Virus record (IMG/VR): IMGVR_UViG_3300030118_003500
Span: 1-28,083 of that record
DNA: 28,083 bases
Origin: a virus
Direction: 5' to 3' (one strand)
The notes under the pieces were generated by a model. It searched no databases, was not told where the DNA came from, and saw only the letters and a list, made by a program, of their open reading frames with translations. This document shows positions 97 through 6,070 of the stretch, in pieces (within the stretch, counting starts at the first letter, position 1; the number at the start of each line of letters is the position of its first letter). The translations under genes were made by a program, and so were the position numbers.

Positions 97-808
97 AGTC
101 TAATCCTAATGCTATTTCTGATGCGTTTTCTGGAATGCTATCAATTATATTAAATGAAGGGAAAATGGTTTCAGTCGCGACCCCTCGTTGACCTTCACCA
201 AAAACCCTCCATAAGTTTTTGTCTACTTCTTTTAATCTTTCAATTTCTGATACTGTTGTTTTATCTAAAAACGGATTGTCCTTATATGTTGATATATGAA
301 AATCTACATCATTTCTATTTGCATCAATTATCTGTGTATATAACCAATGATATTCGTCAGACGGATTAAAGTCAATGATTATTTTAAATGTAGTTCTTAA
401 TGCAAGTTGTGTATATTCTTCAAAGCCAAATTCATTGCATTCGTTAAGAAATAGAATATCACGTTTTCGCCCTCTAACTCTTGCAGGTTGATCAACGCTT
501 ATAAATTCAAAGTAGTTGCCGTAGAGTGTATATAGACTGCTTGATTTATTGTGTAGCTTTTCGTCATATAGGTTTTCTTTTTTTATAATGTCAAAAAAAT
601 CTCGCATTGCTGTTCCTCTTAATGCAGGAAATGTTTTTCTTGCAATTGTGATATAAAGTCCTTTGCCTTTATTCTTATAAGCAAATTCAATCAATGCAAG
701 TAGAATAGAATATGTTTTTCCTGATCTTGTTCCACCTTGTAAAACGCATAATCTTTTTTTAGATTGTTTTAAATCATAATATGGTTTAGCTTGTTTCTTC
801 ATCTTCAT
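1..808 (-). CDS. terL: Large terminase subunit, N-terminal part (runs off the window start)
   Basis: ATPase motor that packages phage DNA into proheads. The reading frame runs unbroken from ATG 808 (or ATG 802) to base 1. A Walker A motif GGTRSGKT lies at residues 25-32, a Walker B-like stretch RDILFLNECN near residue 110, and the fragment ends in the start of the RNase H-like nuclease domain (LGLDFGFSADPTS, whose Asp is the expected first metal ligand). The start overlaps the end of the small terminase by 23 bases. The missing C-terminal nuclease half is encoded at 27620-28083 on the same strand; joined, the protein would be about 390 residues, normal for the family. This is therefore a gene cut by the ends of the sequence, not a truncated gene. 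Confidence 0.95.
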   Translation of the reverse strand, partial: MKMKKQAKPYYDLKQSKKRLCVLQGGTRSGKTYSILLALIEFAYKNKGKGLYITIARKTFPALRGTAMRDFFDIIKKENLYDEKLHNKSSSLYTLYGNYFEFISVDQPARVRGRKRDILFLNECNEFGFEEYTQLALRTTFKIIIDFNPSDEYHWLYTQIIDANRNDVDFHISTYKDNPFLDKTTVSEIERLKEVDKNLWRVFGEGQRGVATETIFPSFNIIDSIPENASEIALGLDFGFSADPTSLIKVYKHDLNLYIDELIYEKGLT

Positions 809-1112
809 TGATCCAAGAAGGTGGCGTTGCACTTACATTAACATTCTGATCTGGTAAACCCTCTATTCTATCTAAAATTTCTTTTATTGCTTTTAGCTTT
901 TCATTGTTATTGCTATCCTTATGGAACGCTATTTGTATTAACATCTTTGCTATTGGCGAACCAAAATCACCTTCACCACCCATGTTTGTATCTTGAACAG
1001 ATAACAATTCTTTTAATACTGTAGCTACATTTCTTCTACCTTTTGGTCTACCATTCTTCTTAGGTTGATTAGTAGAACTAAACTGTGTTGCTTTGTTTGG
1101 AAATTTATTCAT
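786..1112 (-). CDS. terS: Small terminase subunit (putative)
   Basis: A 108-residue protein directly upstream of terL. A basic N-terminal segment (KKNGRPKGRRN, residues 18-28) is followed by a helical region (TVLKELL, IAKMLIQIAF, KLKAIKEILDRIEG) and an acidic tail. This resembles phage small terminases or DUF5681-like proteins that recognise the packaging site and hand DNA to TerL. The call rests on the GRPKGRRN-type basic motif plus position; no structure can be verified from sequence alone. It starts at ATG 1112, just downstream of the tRNA-like element. Confidence 0.65.
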   Translation of the reverse strand: MNKFPNKATQFSSTNQPKKNGRPKGRRNVATVLKELLSVQDTNMGGEGDFGSPIAKMLIQIAFHKDSNNNEKLKAIKEILDRIEGLPDQNVNVSATPPSWINEDEETS

Positions 1113-1140
1113 TGATTCCGTTTTTATTCCGTTTTATTTG

Positions 1141-1212
1141 AGCGAGCAGGTGGACTTGAACCCCATCTTTATACTGGTAGTATAATGCTTTAACCAATTA
1201 AGCTATACTCGC
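1141..1212 (-). tRNA. tRNA-like element, anticodon ACC (Gly?), imperfect T-arm
   Basis: Read on the minus strand, the element has a fully paired 7-bp acceptor (GCGAGTA with TGCTCGC, one G-T pair), U8 and A9, a 4-bp D stem GCTT/AAGC with A14, GG and A21 in the loop, and a 5-bp anticodon stem TTATA/TATAA. The loop CTACCAG gives anticodon ACC. The T loop is TTCAAGT, but the 3' side CCACC faces GGGG where GGTGG would pair perfectly, as if one T had been lost. No CCA is encoded. The anticodon stem can extend to 7 bp, closing the loop. It overlaps the last 15 bases of the Mom-like gene. It may be a degraded tRNA, a sequencing indel, or a tRNA mimic. Confidence 0.6.
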
Positions 1213-1815
1213 ATTTTTAATGTATTCTTTTTTTATTTTATTGCACATTAATCTCATCTCTTTTGTTAGTGGATATATAAATTTATGTTTTACACCTTTT
1301 TTTATTCTTATTAAATCACTTGTTTTATAAACTTTTTTATATACACCAAATTGCTTATTATATCCTTTTGAGCTATGACTTCTACTGTGTATGTCTTTTC
1401 CTGTTTTTGGACATATATATTTATCACCTGTTTTGTGACTTCCTGTATAAAACCAATTAGTAGCTTTATAGATTGTGCCATTATGCCCCTCATCACTATC
1501 TGCATAGGAAACAAGCATTTCGACCAACTTGTTTTCTTTTTTAAATTTTTTAATAGATAACGATAAACATTTGCTTGTTTTTTCTTGTTTTCCATTTAAT
1601 GCCATTCTAGCTAATTCACACACCTTACCTTTTTGCAATCCAAAAGGCTTTTCTATTGCTCCTATTCCATTATTGTATATTATACAACCACACCATTCAT
1701 TTTTTTTATTAAAAACAGAATATCCAACCATTGGTTGTGCTGGTATTCTTTTAGCATAATGAAATTTTAAACAAGCATATCTCATAGCCTTATATGATGC
1801 TTTTTTTAAAATCAT
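1198..1815 (-). CDS. Mom-like DNA modification protein
   Basis: A 205-residue protein resembling the Mu Mom family, GNAT-fold enzymes that modify adenines in phage DNA (methylcarbamoyl addition in Mu) and protect it from restriction. Seen here: the core MVGYSVF (29-35), CGCIIYNNGIGAIEKPFG (42-59), VCELARMAL (65-73), LVSYADSDEG (101-110) and GTIYKATNWFYTG (113-125), the last being the most recognisable Mom-family block. The C-terminal third is basic. Its ATG overlaps the stop of the ParB-like gene as ATGA, so the two are translationally coupled. It ends inside the tRNA-like element. Family assignment is by motif recognition; the actual modification is not known from sequence. Confidence 0.75.
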   Translation of the reverse strand: MILKKASYKAMRYACLKFHYAKRIPAQPMVGYSVFNKKNEWCGCIIYNNGIGAIEKPFGLQKGKVCELARMALNGKQEKTSKCLSLSIKKFKKENKLVEMLVSYADSDEGHNGTIYKATNWFYTGSHKTGDKYICPKTGKDIHSRSHSSKGYNKQFGVYKKVYKTSDLIRIKKGVKHKFIYPLTKEMRLMCNKIKKEYIKNASIA

Positions 1816-2357
1816 ATTTCACCAAAACTTACTGAATAAAAACTATTGTCATATATTTTTATCATTTGTTTAATTTCTTTTTCTGCTAATTTCAAATCAT
1901 TTATATTGTCAAATGTAATTTTTATTGTTGGGGGTTTGTTTTTTAAATCGTCTGTCAATTCATCTAAATTTGGTTCTTCTATTTTATCTATATTAAGTCC
2001 TAAGTCTATTTCTTTAAAACCCCAATCTTTCAATTCTTCTATTTCAAATTCATTTGCTAATATGTCTAAATCAAATTCACCACCACTTTTATTAAGTCTT
2101 ATATTTAATTCTCTTTCTTCTTCTTTTGTTAAGTCTAATACAACACAATCTATTTCTGTATGTTTTAATTCTTTACACACTTTCAATCTTTGATGACCAC
2201 CAATAACAACATTTCCATTTTTATTTACAATAATAGGATCAACTAAATCAAACTTTTCAATTGATTCTTTTAAATCCTTATATTGCTTTGTGCTTATCTG
2301 TCTTGGATTATAACTTGCAGGTTGTAATTTATTTATCTTTATTTTTTCTATTTTCAT
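1812..2357 (-). CDS. ParB-like N-terminal domain protein
   Basis: A 181-residue protein with a ParB/sulfiredoxin-fold domain over about the first 120 residues: LQPASYNPRQ (11-20), then VVIGGHQRLKV (50-60) with the GGHQR nucleotide-binding signature, then LNIRLNKSGGEFD. There is no helix-turn-helix centromere-binding domain, so a partition role is unlikely. Stand-alone ParB-like domains are common next to phage DNA-modification genes; here it is coupled by an ATGA overlap to the Mom-like gene, which suggests a role in targeting or assisting modification (inference). The last 60 residues are acidic and unassigned. Confidence 0.85.
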   Translation of the reverse strand: MKIEKIKINKLQPASYNPRQISTKQYKDLKESIEKFDLVDPIIVNKNGNVVIGGHQRLKVCKELKHTEIDCVVLDLTKEEERELNIRLNKSGGEFDLDILANEFEIEELKDWGFKEIDLGLNIDKIEEPNLDELTDDLKNKPPTIKITFDNINDLKLAEKEIKQMIKIYDNSFYSVSFGEI

Positions 2358-2616
2358 ATTGCTTTAATCTTTTTTCTAATTCTATTAAGCTATAAATTTG
2401 AACGCATACATTCTCTAAATGTTTTATTTTGCAATACATATTGAAGCATCTGTCTGATTCTGCTTTTATATGACAATCACGACAAACACCAATTAAATTT
2501 TCTATATAATCATTTTTAATTTTATTTCTACGTTCTAAATGGTGAATATCAACTGCAACATCATTACACATTTCGCATAGTATGGTCGAGCTTTCATCAT
2601 AACCAAAAAAGTTCAT
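2329..2616 (-). CDS. HNH endonuclease-like protein
   Basis: A 95-residue protein with a compact HNH (beta-beta-alpha metal) fold: Cys14-x2-Cys17 and Cys45-x2-Cys48 form the structural zinc site, and DIHHLERR (23-30) plus ENLIGVCRDCH (39-49) give the catalytic His and Asn/His. ATG 2616 is preferred over an upstream TTG at 2640 because it sits 7 bases past the stop of the preceding zinc-ribbon gene. Its 3' end overlaps the ParB-like gene by 29 bases. It could nick DNA during packaging or replication, or belong with the modification genes next door. Confidence 0.85.
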   Translation of the reverse strand: MNFFGYDESSTILCEMCNDVAVDIHHLERRNKIKNDYIENLIGVCRDCHIKAESDRCFNMYCKIKHLENVCVQIYSLIELEKRLKQYENRKNKDK

Positions 2617-2623
2617 ATATACT

Positions 2624-2779
2624 TTAGTATGATTCTGCAACTTCCTTTTTTCTTCTTTTAATTTTAAAATCGTCTGTTGGACTTGCGACTACAAACTTAC
2701 CTTTGCAGAAATAACAACAATTATCTTGCATTAGAGTCATCCTAACGCATCTACAACAGAATCTAAATATCTGACTCAT
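2624..2779 (-). CDS. 51-residue zinc-ribbon protein
   Basis: A short reading frame, ATG 2779 to TAA 2624, encoding a protein that starts MSQIFRFCCRCVRM and contains a second cysteine group CCYFCKGKF, then a Lys/Arg-rich tail. The two CxxC pairs (residues 8-11 region and 22-25 region) suggest one zinc-binding knuckle. It overlaps the upstream gene by 17 bases and is followed closely by the HNH gene, fitting the local packing. In phage Mu a 62-residue zinc-finger protein, Com, activates translation of mom; size, zinc ribbon and neighbourhood make a Com-like role thinkable, but no sequence homology is claimed. Confidence 0.6.
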   Translation of the reverse strand: MSQIFRFCCRCVRMTLMQDNCCYFCKGKFVVASPTDDFKIKRRKKEVAESY

Positions 2780-3366: not shown

Positions 3367-3458
3367 ATTATTGCTATGGATAAAAGTCCTAGACAAAATA
3401 AAGTTAATAATGCAACAATTACATTTGCAATTATTTCTTCTTCTTGATCGTTAAACAT
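3363..3458 (-). CDS. 31-residue single-pass membrane peptide
   Basis: A tiny gene running from ATG 3458 to TGA 3363. An acidic N-terminus (MFNDQEEE) is followed by one uninterrupted hydrophobic segment of about 22 residues (IIANVIVALLTLFCLGLLSI). Both ends interlock with neighbours: its start overlaps the last 8 bases of the sigma-like gene and its stop shares ATGA with the next start. That packing is the main reason to accept it. Function unknown. Confidence 0.6.
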   Translation of the reverse strand: MFNDQEEEIIANVIVALLTLFCLGLLSIAII

Positions 3459-3966
3459 TTTCTTTTTCTTTAATTAAATACTTCTTGACATTATTAATAG
3501 CTTTAAATAGTGTGTTTCTATTTATCTTAGTTGCTTTCGCCATACTATTCAAACTATGTTCTTCTAAATAATAAACTTTAAAAACCTGCGAATCAAACCA
3601 ATAACAGTCTTTTAGTTTTTCTTCGATCCAATCTAATCTTTCTTCTATTTGGTTTTTATCTTTTATAGTGTATTCTGTATTGTCTGCTGTTATGCTTTCT
3701 ATAGTGGTTGTTGTGTGATATTCGTAATACTTATTGTATTTGTAATAATAACGACTTGTTTTAGAATGGTATTGATTGAGCATTACTCTAGCAATATAAA
3801 ATGTTAATTGATTTTTTTTTATAATTTCATCTATTCTTTCTTGATCGCATTTGTATAGTTCTTCAATAACAAAACTTAATAAGTCGTCTTTTCCTTTTTT
3901 ACCTGCTATATTGAAAGCCATGTCCTTTAGCTTATCATAGTTTTCAATTAGGTATTTGTCTAACAT
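3451..3966 (-). CDS. Sigma-factor-like / HTH transcription regulator
   Basis: A 171-residue protein whose C-terminal third resembles sigma-70 region 4: a helical stretch FDSQVFKVYYLEEHSLNSMA (about 124-143) followed by KATKINRNTLFKAINNVKKYL, a plausible helix-turn-helix. The N-terminal half is helical (LIENYDKLKDMAFNIAGKKG) with a Tyr/Lys-rich linker. Such proteins are frequent in Bacteroidetes phages in the same gene neighbourhood, where they may switch on late genes; that role is inferred here. It sits between early replication genes and the packaging genes. Confidence 0.65.
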   Translation of the reverse strand: MLDKYLIENYDKLKDMAFNIAGKKGKDDLLSFVIEELYKCDQERIDEIIKKNQLTFYIARVMLNQYHSKTSRYYYKYNKYYEYHTTTTIESITADNTEYTIKDKNQIEERLDWIEEKLKDCYWFDSQVFKVYYLEEHSLNSMAKATKINRNTLFKAINNVKKYLIKEKENV

Positions 3967-4241: not shown

Positions 4242-4881
4242 CAAATAAATCTGTTTGGATATAATTATTTTTATTTATATTTAAAACTGCTTCTAAAATT
4301 GTTTTTCCTGCTTCATAGTCTACTAAGTTTCTTGCAATTTTATTTTTAGTTTGTTTTCCTTTATATTTATTAAAATCATAATCATGAAAATTTGACAAGG
4401 CATCAATTAATTTTTTAGTTCTTGCTAAGTCTGGGTTTTTTCTTGTGCTTAGTATTTTTGGTATTGTAAAATTTGTCCAATATAAATGTCTTTTTCTTTT
4501 TTCTGCTGGAATTAAAGTGTCATAAAAAGGAATGACATTTTCAACACAATATCTTCCATTATAATAATGCTTTAAAAAAATTATTTCTTGATATAAAGCC
4601 ATATCAGGGTATTTCATTTTTCTTTTATTTTTCATTGATATATTAAACCTACTGTGTGTAGGGCAAGGTGGGCTACTCCAAATAAAATCAAATTCTTTAT
4701 AATGGTCTAACAGGTATTGGTGAGCATCTGCTATAATAACAGTGTCATTTGGAAATCTTTCTTGATATAATTTTGCAAGTTCTTCATCCCATTCAACAGC
4801 CGTGACCTCTATGTCTTTTTTAACTTCATCCCACTTGTATCGATTGCCACCAAGACAAGCATATAAATTTAATATCTTCAT
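4231..4881 (-). CDS. C5-cytosine DNA methyltransferase
   Basis: A 216-residue methyltransferase expected to move a methyl group from S-adenosylmethionine to C5 of cytosine. Seen: motif I-like NLYACLGGNRYKWDEV (5-20), an acidic residue in VTAVEWDEELA (26-36), motif IV SSPPCPTHS (69-77) with catalytic Cys73, and motif VI VENV (113-116). It is shorter than typical bacterial enzymes (over 300 residues) with little room for a target-recognition domain, as is common for phage versions. Its ATGA start overlaps the VRR-NUC stop. It probably protects phage DNA from host restriction. Confidence 0.9.
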   Translation of the reverse strand: MKILNLYACLGGNRYKWDEVKKDIEVTAVEWDEELAKLYQERFPNDTVIIADAHQYLLDHYKEFDFIWSSPPCPTHSRFNISMKNKRKMKYPDMALYQEIIFLKHYYNGRYCVENVIPFYDTLIPAEKRKRHLYWTNFTIPKILSTRKNPDLARTKKLIDALSNFHDYDFNKYKGKQTKNKIARNLVDYEAGKTILEAVLNINKNNYIQTDLFDES

Positions 4882-5222
4882 TTTATTTTTCCTTCTAAAT
4901 AACGATTTATAACTACTAAGGCTTCATCTATTCCTGTGCATATTTCTGCAACATATCCTCTTTCATTTAATTCATTACGCCAATATAATTGATCTTTTGT
5001 TGCTCTATTATACCCAACCTTTAATTCAATAGCTAATCCATGAAATTCGCCACGTGGTTCGTATATAAACAAATCTGGAAAACCTTTTTTATATCCACTT
5101 TTTTTTGCTTTGATTCTTTGACTCATATGCACTTGATACTGTCCACCCATTGAACCACAATATAAAACATTTTGCAAGTCTAAGTATTTACATACTGCTT
5201 TTTGTAATTCGTATTCTTTCAT
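4878..5222 (-). CDS. VRR-NUC domain nuclease
   Basis: A 114-residue single-domain protein of the VRR-NUC (PD-(D/E)XK) family. Catalytic pattern: GFPDLFIYEP (47-56, Asp50), LAIELKVG (63-70, Glu66 and Lys68), then TKDQ (75-78). Family members act as structure-specific nucleases in DNA repair or recombination and are common in phage replication clusters. Its ATG shares ATGA with the stop of the 38-residue membrane gene upstream and its stop shares ATGA with the methyltransferase, so three genes are tightly coupled. Confidence 0.9.
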   Translation of the reverse strand: MKEYELQKAVCKYLDLQNVLYCGSMGGQYQVHMSQRIKAKKSGYKKGFPDLFIYEPRGEFHGLAIELKVGYNRATKDQLYWRNELNERGYVAEICTGIDEALVVINRYLEGKIK

Positions 5223-5335
5223 CTGTAAAATTTATATATTAAATATGATATAATTGGCGTTGTCATTATGGTTGTAAATATGTTTATATGGGGTTCACCA
5301 CAAAAACCAAATAAATGTTTTATTATTTCAATCAT
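5219..5335 (-). CDS. 38-residue membrane-associated peptide
   Basis: ATG 5335 to TGA 5219, with an ATGA overlap at both ends (with the replication gene upstream and the VRR-NUC gene downstream). The sequence has a motif HLFGFCGEPH (7-16) followed by a hydrophobic segment IFTTIMTTPIISYLIY and a basic end KFYR, so one membrane span with the C-terminus probably inside. The FG(F/L)CGE..H block recalls small proteins in other phage genomes, from memory only. Function unknown. Confidence 0.65.
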   Translation of the reverse strand: MIEIIKHLFGFCGEPHINIFTTIMTTPIISYLIYKFYR

Positions 5336-6070
5336 TTCTTAATCCATTTTTGACCAGCATTAGGATTGTATTCTGTTGTATATCCTAAATTCTTCAAATG
5401 CTGTTCATATTCTTTTTTAGATGAATCGTCCATTCTTTTGAAAAGTAATGAATCAAAATAGTCTGGAAATCTTGATTTTTGTTTATTAAAATTGTTATTT
5501 GACCACCTTTTTAATCTTCTGCTTATATCAAAAGTCTTTTCCATTTCTGCACGATATTTGCTTCCAGACTTGTTTTTTTCTGTCCAATACAAAAAGAATG
5601 CTTTTTTATCTTCATCATTAATTCCTTCTATTGATTGAATTGATTTTTTAAAATCAATAATTCTTTCTTCTATACTCTTATTTACTTTACTTATACTCTT
5701 ATTTACTTTACTAGCATTGCGTTCGCTATGCGATTGCATTGCGTTTGCATTTTTCCAACGTTTAGATGCGTTTTCTTTTGCCTTGTTTGATTTATTATTT
5801 ATTTCTTCTATATGATTATTTAAACGTCTTGAATAAAAGCAATTATCCTCAATAACAAACAAATCAAAATCTTCAATAACTTGTTTTAAAACGTCAGAAT
5901 CACATTGTAAACCAAATGCTAATGATGCATAGTTTGTTTTCTTCTGTAAATAATAATTCTAATACAGCCCAGAATATGCCATAACCTTCATATCCTAATT
6001 TAGATCTTAATTTTATAACTCTAATATCTAATCTTGCTACTGAATCGTGGTTAAAATATGTTTTTTTCAT
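5332..6070 (-). CDS. DUF4373-like replication protein, interrupted by a +1 frameshift
   Basis: Two overlapping frames together give a phage replication initiator-like protein. Frame 1 (ATG 6070 to TGA 5900) encodes MKKTYFNHDSVARLDIRVIK...GYEGYGIFWAVLELLFTEEN, typical of the DUF4373/Lin1244-type N-terminal winged-helix domain. Frame 2 then supplies NYASLAFGLQCDSDVLKQ...DFDLFVIEDNCFYSRRLN, a repeat-rich linker and a C-terminal domain ending KWIKK at 5332. The join requires skipping one base near 5935-5945 (minus-strand GAAGAAAACAAAC). Frame 2 has only a TTG start at 5862 in mid-domain, so it is not an independent gene. This may be an assembly indel, a recent mutation, or a programmed shift. Confidence 0.75.
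5671..5712. repeat. Perfect 2 x 21-bp tandem repeat inside the replication gene
   Basis: The unit TATACTCTTATTTACTTTAC plus one T occurs at 5671-5691 and again at 5692-5712. On the coding strand it gives the repeated peptide KVNKSIS. It is AT-rich and lies beside the GC-richer iteron-like repeats at 5714-5745. Confidence 0.9.
5714..5745. repeat. Iteron-like repeats, candidate replication origin
   Basis: GCATTGCGTT occurs at 5714-5723 and 5736-5745, exactly 22 bp apart (two helical turns), and each is followed by a TGC/CGC-rich stretch. Together with the AT-rich tandem repeat at 5671-5712 this resembles the arrangement of ori-lambda, where initiator-binding iterons and an AT-rich segment lie inside the initiator gene. 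The coding region here is the linker (NANAMQSHSERNA) between the two domains of the replication protein. Function is inferred. Confidence 0.45.

Follow-up and report, generated by a model that had tools for sequence, protein, structure and literature searches.

A mobile phage cassette joins the DNA-hypermodification enzyme Mom to a likely glycyl donor tRNA and a candidate ParB-like docking adaptor

We identified in a 28,083-base linear virus record (IMG/VR record IMGVR_UViG_3300030118_003500; this whole stretch is referred to as the window) a mobile DNA-hypermodification cassette formed by the mom-specific tail of a ParB-like protein, a Mom-family enzyme and a dedicated tRNA-Gly (Table 1). Comparison with sister phages shows the exchange of this block. 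The three parts likely make up a glycine-dependent DNA-modification system in which the tRNA is a dedicated glycyl donor for Mom and the ParB-like protein a docking adaptor, and which probably disguises the phage DNA by putting glycine on adenine, to judge from the sequences. It is also likely, if with somewhat less assurance, that the tRNA belongs to a non-translational family in phages of several bacterial phyla whose members are glycine carriers for DNA modification and travel with mom, and that a ParB adaptor with exchangeable tails swaps at least six kinds of enzyme at one slot. Where the glycine of the Mom modification comes from has long been an open question, to which these loci bring comparative evidence, independent of biochemistry, in favor of glycyl-tRNA. 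In the literature searched, with most subscription journals outside its scope, the dedicated tRNA family and the ParB-tail cassette appear to be unreported, and nothing was found on ParB together with Mom.

The Mom enzyme and its linked tRNA-Gly

The 205-residue protein is beyond doubt a genuine Mom enzyme with its catalytic residues kept. It matches the Mom family PF25680 at 107 bits (curated cut-off, 27.1) and phrog_1384 (E value, 3.8e-36), and its profile match to the Mom protein of phage Mu (PDB 8BV8) has an E value of 2.5e-22. The top PDB match of the AF2 model (predicted local distance difference test [pLDDT] score of 92.7) is the same structure (8BV8, Mu Mom S124A; template modeling score of 0.67-0.72), in agreement with the GNAT-like Mom fold that a preliminary description of the sequence had proposed. 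S81 of the protein corresponds in the alignment to Mu S124, which is the mutated position of the inactive protein in 8BV8. Further, H19, Y20, E67, R70, S103, D106, Y116, N120 and H143 show no variation among 62 relatives and are the same in Mu.

Overlapping the 3' end of mom by 15 nucleotides (nt) is a tRNA-Gly gene that does not encode the CCA end. The preliminary description had delimited the system to positions 1198-2779, a range that does contain the four protein-coding genes yet ends within this tRNA, which went unnoticed although it tells us more than any other part of the locus. Using a covariance model (R1) built from 25 tRNA copies, we recovered the tRNA in 86 of 98 Mom sources, every one at mom. 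Strong covariation supports the bulged structure that the model describes (137 double-changed cells versus 42 in shuffles). By contrast, R1 gave no convincing match in 77 ParB loci without mom, where two scores of 21-27 bits in one locus (L153) were lower than those of every mom-linked copy. Counted over non-redundant Moms, the tRNA is at mom in 72 of 83. Among loci sampled through ParB alone, it was present in all 21 with mom and in none of the 57 without, a comparison whose p-value is nominal because the loci are related and for which swaps within one lineage serve as replicates. In the lineage that carries the window's zinc ribbon and HNH genes and a variable gene slot after parB, none of 27 non-Mom slots has the tRNA. 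It is present in L227, where the slot is occupied by a Mom that falls on the Mu side of the tree. Thus, the tRNA tracks Mom and not the lineage. The Mom tree gives the same picture, with the tRNA in 73 of 84 members of the ParB-associated clade and lacking in 16 of 17 others, L227 being the exception. A Salinibacter phage met after the model was built (B2_17) carries ParB, Mom and a bulged tRNA-Gly scoring 64.5 bits.

Measured from the stop codon of mom, most offsets of the tRNA fall in the range -113 to +35 (commonest, -14), and 16 of the 86 copies are on the opposite strand. As the inverted copies remain at mom, the tRNA product acts in trans. Several loci (L012, L018, L058, L136 and others) have the tRNA wholly within the mom frame, so that translation of the tRNA sequence supplies the ~25 C-terminal residues of Mom. 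One phage contig (L056) encodes two Moms of different clades (2058-2675 and 4750-5421).

It is common for phages to encode tRNAs and to use tRNA genes as integration sites, and the tRNA-Gly sits at one edge of the swapped block; hence it could be an ordinary phage tRNA, or a recombination or integration landmark, that merely lies beside mom. We find this quite unlikely, because the tRNAs of dozens of divergent Mom loci are all of the Gly type, and because this tRNA is absent from all 77 ParB-only controls, lies between mom and the terminase genes and follows Mom when the slot gene changes, as in L227. A scan of 396 Bacteroidota genomes, which adds specificity and no new loci, found a copy (E <= 1e-12) in only one, at the mom of a prophage already known. 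The T-stem bulge and 8-nt anticodon loops described next are, moreover, ill-suited to decoding.

Architecture of the tRNA-Gly

The acceptor start GCG is present in 84 of the 86 copies and U73 in 85, and the CC of the anticodon is kept. The copy in the window, a tRNA fold by Rfam, fits the identity set of bacterial glycyl-tRNA synthetase, which consists of G1-C72, C2-G71, U73, C35 and C36. Its anticodon, ACC, is rare in bacteria. A bulged A interrupts the T stem in 84 of 86 copies, including the one in the window (the two exceptions are actinobacterial), and the anticodon loop has 8 nt in 40 copies and 9 nt in one (7 nt in the window). Some copies lack the usual GG of the D loop or TTC of the T loop. 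Host tRNA-Gly genes, on the other hand, are free of these anomalies: their T stems are ordinary and their loops have 7 nt. The family therefore departs from the regular 5-base-pair T stem and 7-nt anticodon loop of translational tRNAs. Given that many copies have an 8-nt loop and that the bulge falls in the region of the T stem contacted by EF-Tu, the family looks excluded from translation. A non-proteogenic tRNA-Gly with weak EF-Tu binding is known from staphylococci, where it supplies the GNAT-related transferase FemXAB with glycine for the cell wall. Unlike the staphylococcal molecule, the window tRNA is phage-borne, linked to a DNA-modifying enzyme and marked by the retained T-stem bulge, often with an 8-nt anticodon loop in its relatives.

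The ParB-like partner and its enzyme-specific tail

About 115 Mom loci, drawn from viral contigs and genomes, have a ParB-like gene as the immediate upstream neighbor of mom, with a gap of exactly -3 (ATGA) in nearly all of them. The ATGA coupling noted for the window in the preliminary description is thus a recurrent feature, and it supports ParB-Mom as a conserved, translationally coupled pair. The pair is also present in Enterococcus phiEf11, Microbacterium Appa and Psychrobacter Y8A and, with one small gene in between, in Arthrobacter BarretLemon. No recognisable ParB gene adjoins mom in Mu, Listeria A511 and LP-114, Proteus, Riggi and other Mom loci. A natural ParB-Mom fusion, sought as proof of interaction, was not found.

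The AF2 model of the ParB-like protein (pLDDT of 89) matches ParB-CDP, Noc, KorB and PadC in the PDB, and the protein shares with these cytidine triphosphate (CTP)-binding proteins the fold and a partial nucleotide motif (GxxR, N89). It differs from them in lacking both a helix-turn-helix and a dimer domain; in the model, the N domain is followed only by a short helical hairpin and the tail. Residues Q52 and E93 of Myxococcus xanthus ParB align with D40 and L88. Because these are two residues needed for CTP hydrolysis, we do not assume a sliding CTP clamp.

The tail, in turn, is specific to the enzyme made next. A hidden Markov model (HMM) built from half of the Mom-paired tails matched 84 of 94 Mom-paired ParBs (43 of the 52 held out) and none of 63 ParBs whose slot has another known enzyme or none. 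It also matched 3 of 17 ParBs with an unclassified neighbor, one of which (L093) precedes a mom gene with an over-long frame call. A second tail type (NENSNGN) is present in all three ParBs paired with a Mu-side Mom and nowhere else. A third type, which resembles a zinc knuckle (CPxCG), stands directly before mom in L180, L181, L184 and L251, from phages of Firmicutes, Actinobacteria and Salinibacter; it is a loose parallel to Com, the zinc-finger regulator of Mu Mom. In Taibaiella-type loci the tail is kept though the N domain is very divergent.

The ParB domain itself is fused or adjacent to N6/N4 methyltransferases, C5 methyltransferases, a TET-associated glycosyltransferase, ABC-GNAT, an amino acid:DNA transferase and two Mom classes. 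As these partners have unrelated chemistries, the domain cannot supply one chemistry shared by all, and a role as such an enzyme was ruled out. A more specific catalytic role in the modification path, as a kinase like SerK or an enzyme like sulfiredoxin, would be in line with a weak SerK profile match (0.0083) and with a free serine kinase and sulfiredoxin among the lower-ranked structural matches. We regard it as very unlikely, since the reactions that this one ParB domain serves (methylation, acyl transfer, glycosylation and the transfer of amino acids to DNA) have no step in common. The sequence-targeting role suggested in the preliminary description is also unlikely, because the model has no helix-turn-helix and the domain serves many different enzymes.

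The ParB/Srx fold also includes nucleases, RK2 ParB and Osa among them. The ParB-like protein, or the HNH protein encoded upstream, could accordingly cut unmodified host DNA while the neighboring enzyme protects the phage DNA, in the manner of restriction-modification. Any protective chemistry could partner such a ParB-like nuclease, mom is immediately preceded and overlapped by an HNH nuclease gene in the ParB-less loci L020 and L187 (Geobacillus phage PK3.6), and the Moms of jumbo phages are fused to nuclease domains (PMC7824862). However, some sisters have a solo ParB and no adjacent protecting enzyme, ParB is covalently fused to methyltransferases, and the tail changes with the enzyme, which fits docking. 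A nuclease is therefore an improbable reading, if the least improbable of those weighed here against a docking adaptor. The adaptor role is the weakest step of our explanation and, taken alone, one we favor by a modest degree. Phage ParB-methyltransferase fusions (phrog_498; the Wolbachia prophage methyltransferase, PMC3089641) have the same ParB-like N domain, whereas the window ParB is a separate protein with a mom-specific tail and ATGA coupling to Mom. Exchangeable tails suggest a general docking rule for DNA-modifying enzymes of phages that could help find unknown ones, and ParB neighborhoods could be mined for them. Among the neighborhoods seen, a ParB-methyltransferase adjoins a PAPS reductase in L145, and ParB lies beside an amino acid:DNA transferase in L211 (6134-8138) and a TET/JBP oxygenase in L226 (4296-6335).

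Exchange of the cassette at a variable slot

Searches with the zinc ribbon and HNH proteins yielded about 30 further contigs, which largely share the order ribbon, HNH, ParB, slot, small terminase and large terminase. We classified the slot from Pfam matches for representatives and by similarity or length for the remainder. Some sisters have in it a Mom like that of the window and two (L227 and L228) a Mu-side Mom. The slot holds a C5 methyltransferase in L203, ABC-GNAT in L222, a TET-associated glycosyltransferase in L229, a glycosyltransferase-like protein and a TET/JBP oxygenase in L226, a glutamine amidotransferase-like protein and an amino acid:DNA transferase in L211, and an N6/N4 methyltransferase fused to ParB in L198, L204, L212, L216, L218, L220 and L230. 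It is empty in L199, L200, L202, L205, L217, L219, L223 and L225. The slot-empty sisters have a solo ParB with a short, different tail and no adjacent modification enzyme; two of them (L200 and L202) have an N6/N4-methyltransferase-like open reading frame (ORF) after the large terminase gene.

A search of phage records for near-identical DNA gave no match to the window. The DNA homology of the sisters with the window reaches position ~1978 (ParB codon ~126) and returns at ~1136, just past the tRNA and just before the small terminase gene. In the sisters, the interval between these edges is either empty or taken up by other DNA-modification enzymes. In several contigs whose backbones differ, the match to the window is confined to a block that starts near the tail or middle of ParB and runs through mom or the tRNA. 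The sharp edges and the block-only matches thus define the moving unit as the ParB tail, mom and tRNA-Gly.

The four genes from the zinc ribbon to mom are on the minus strand where the preliminary description had placed them, and each overlaps the next. It had read them as one self-contained system, with the ribbon controlling mom as Com does in Mu and ParB providing sequence targeting. The gene order and overlaps, the zinc-finger regulator of Mu Mom and the CPxCG ends of ParBs just before mom in phages of Actinobacteria, Enterococcus and Salinibacter speak for such a system. Yet ribbon, HNH and ParB recur in the sisters around a mom that is replaceable; ribbon and HNH are retained, with their order unchanged, in nearly all of them, including mom-less ones, and are missing from most Mom loci. 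As the two genes are retained whatever the slot holds, they are not mom-specific, which already contradicts the four-gene reading and rules out HNH as part of the mom unit. The ribbon has no significant similarity to Com and its synteny is independent of mom, so we also rejected it as a Com homologue or regulator. With a ParB that lacks a helix-turn-helix in the model, the four-gene system is the least credible alternative and can hardly be correct.

Proposed mechanism of the cassette

We infer from these observations how the cassette may work in this phage. The glycyl-tRNA synthetase of the host would load the phage tRNA with glycine, and the abnormal T stem (together with the 8-nt anticodon loop in many relatives) would hold it out of translation. 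Mom would then transfer the glycyl group to the N6 amino group of adenine in the phage DNA. The product is expected to be the glycinamide or carbamoylmethyl-adenine of the Mu type, which would block host restriction enzymes; an intramolecular rearrangement of the N6-glycyl adduct to the carbamoylmethyl isomer is possible, though speculative. The nucleotide-binding N domain of ParB could act as a constant socket and its tail as the plug for the enzyme made next, with ParB and the enzyme translated in step via ATGA.

In atomic composition, the modified base of Mu equals adenine plus one glycine residue, and the dedicated tRNA-Gly points to glycyl-tRNA as the donor. We reached this idea from the genomes and only afterwards found a 2025 conference report, which states that work by R. 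M. B. Silva (New England Biolabs) showed adenine hypermodification in Mu to depend on tRNA-Gly for the transfer of a glycyl group (PMC12908700). The Mom fold and active-site residues of the window enzyme are those of Mu, as is the tRNA-Gly dependence reported there. Mu, in contrast, uses com, has neither a ParB-like gene beside mom nor a linked tRNA, and must use the tRNA-Gly of its host. We looked for the tRNA near Mu-type and Listeria-type Moms and did not find it.

Several points weigh against this explanation. The tRNA-Gly evidence for Mu is a single sentence in the conference report (PMC12908700). In 11 of the 83 non-redundant Moms the tRNA was not detectable, mostly in a subclade that includes gut genomes and also in L002, which is close to the window; host tRNA-Gly must therefore suffice there, as in Mu. 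The T-stem bulge is the only sign of a putative exclusion from EF-Tu. Conservation of the tail could partly reflect a ribosome-binding site in the 3' end of parB, where a GGWGA upstream of mom is a possible candidate, and ParB may have another role, since some sisters keep it solo. The natural tRNAs, apparently tuned for glycine donation, make the mechanism directly testable in cultured phages. If true, exclusive service in DNA modification would add a new role to those known for tRNA.

Other features of the locus

Table 1. Positions and supporting matches of the cassette and neighboring features in the window.
Feature	Position	Strand	Basis or remark
Swapped cassette (ParB tail, mom and tRNA-Gly)	1136..1978	-	DNA comparison with sister phages
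tRNA-Gly, anticodon ACC	1140..1212	-	ARAGORN; Rfam RF00005, 51.1 bits, E 3.9e-9; covariance model R1, 80.6 bits
Mom-family DNA adenine hypermodification enzyme, 205 amino acids	1198..1815	-	PF25680, 1.3e-30
ATGA overlap, parB stop/mom start	1812..1815	-	Sequence
ParB-like protein, 181 amino acids	1812..2357	-	ParB_N PF02195, 6.1e-9
ParB-like protein, N-terminal ParB/Srx nucleotide-binding fold	codons 1-~117		
ParB-like protein, mom-specific C-terminal tail	codons ~127-181		
HNH-like protein, 103 amino acids	2329..2640	-	PF01844, 21.2 bits; backbone gene, not mom-linked
Zinc-ribbon-like protein (CxxC/CxxC), 51 amino acids	2624..2779	-	Backbone gene, not mom-linked; no family match
Probable small terminase gene	786..1112	-	phrog_2538 terminase small subunit, weak; large-terminase-like ORFs next in sisters
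Short C5-methyltransferase-like gene, 216 amino acids	4231..4881	-	PF00145, 1.1e-9, residues 1-80 only

Family and profile searches assigned the zinc ribbon to no family, and the score of the HNH protein is just below the Pfam cut-off of 21.4 bits. The separate C5-methyltransferase that the preliminary description had placed in the same operon is a real gene, albeit short, and belongs to a second variable modification slot, located between a VRR-nuclease gene and the next small gene. This slot lacks the C5-methyltransferase-like gene in several sisters (L199, L200 and L202) and holds a distant Mom in L216 (1773-2399). Finally, positions 3451-3966 of the window encode a 171-residue protein, kept in the lineage, whose weak matches to sigma-70/ECF and YlxM profiles suggest a possible phage transcription factor.
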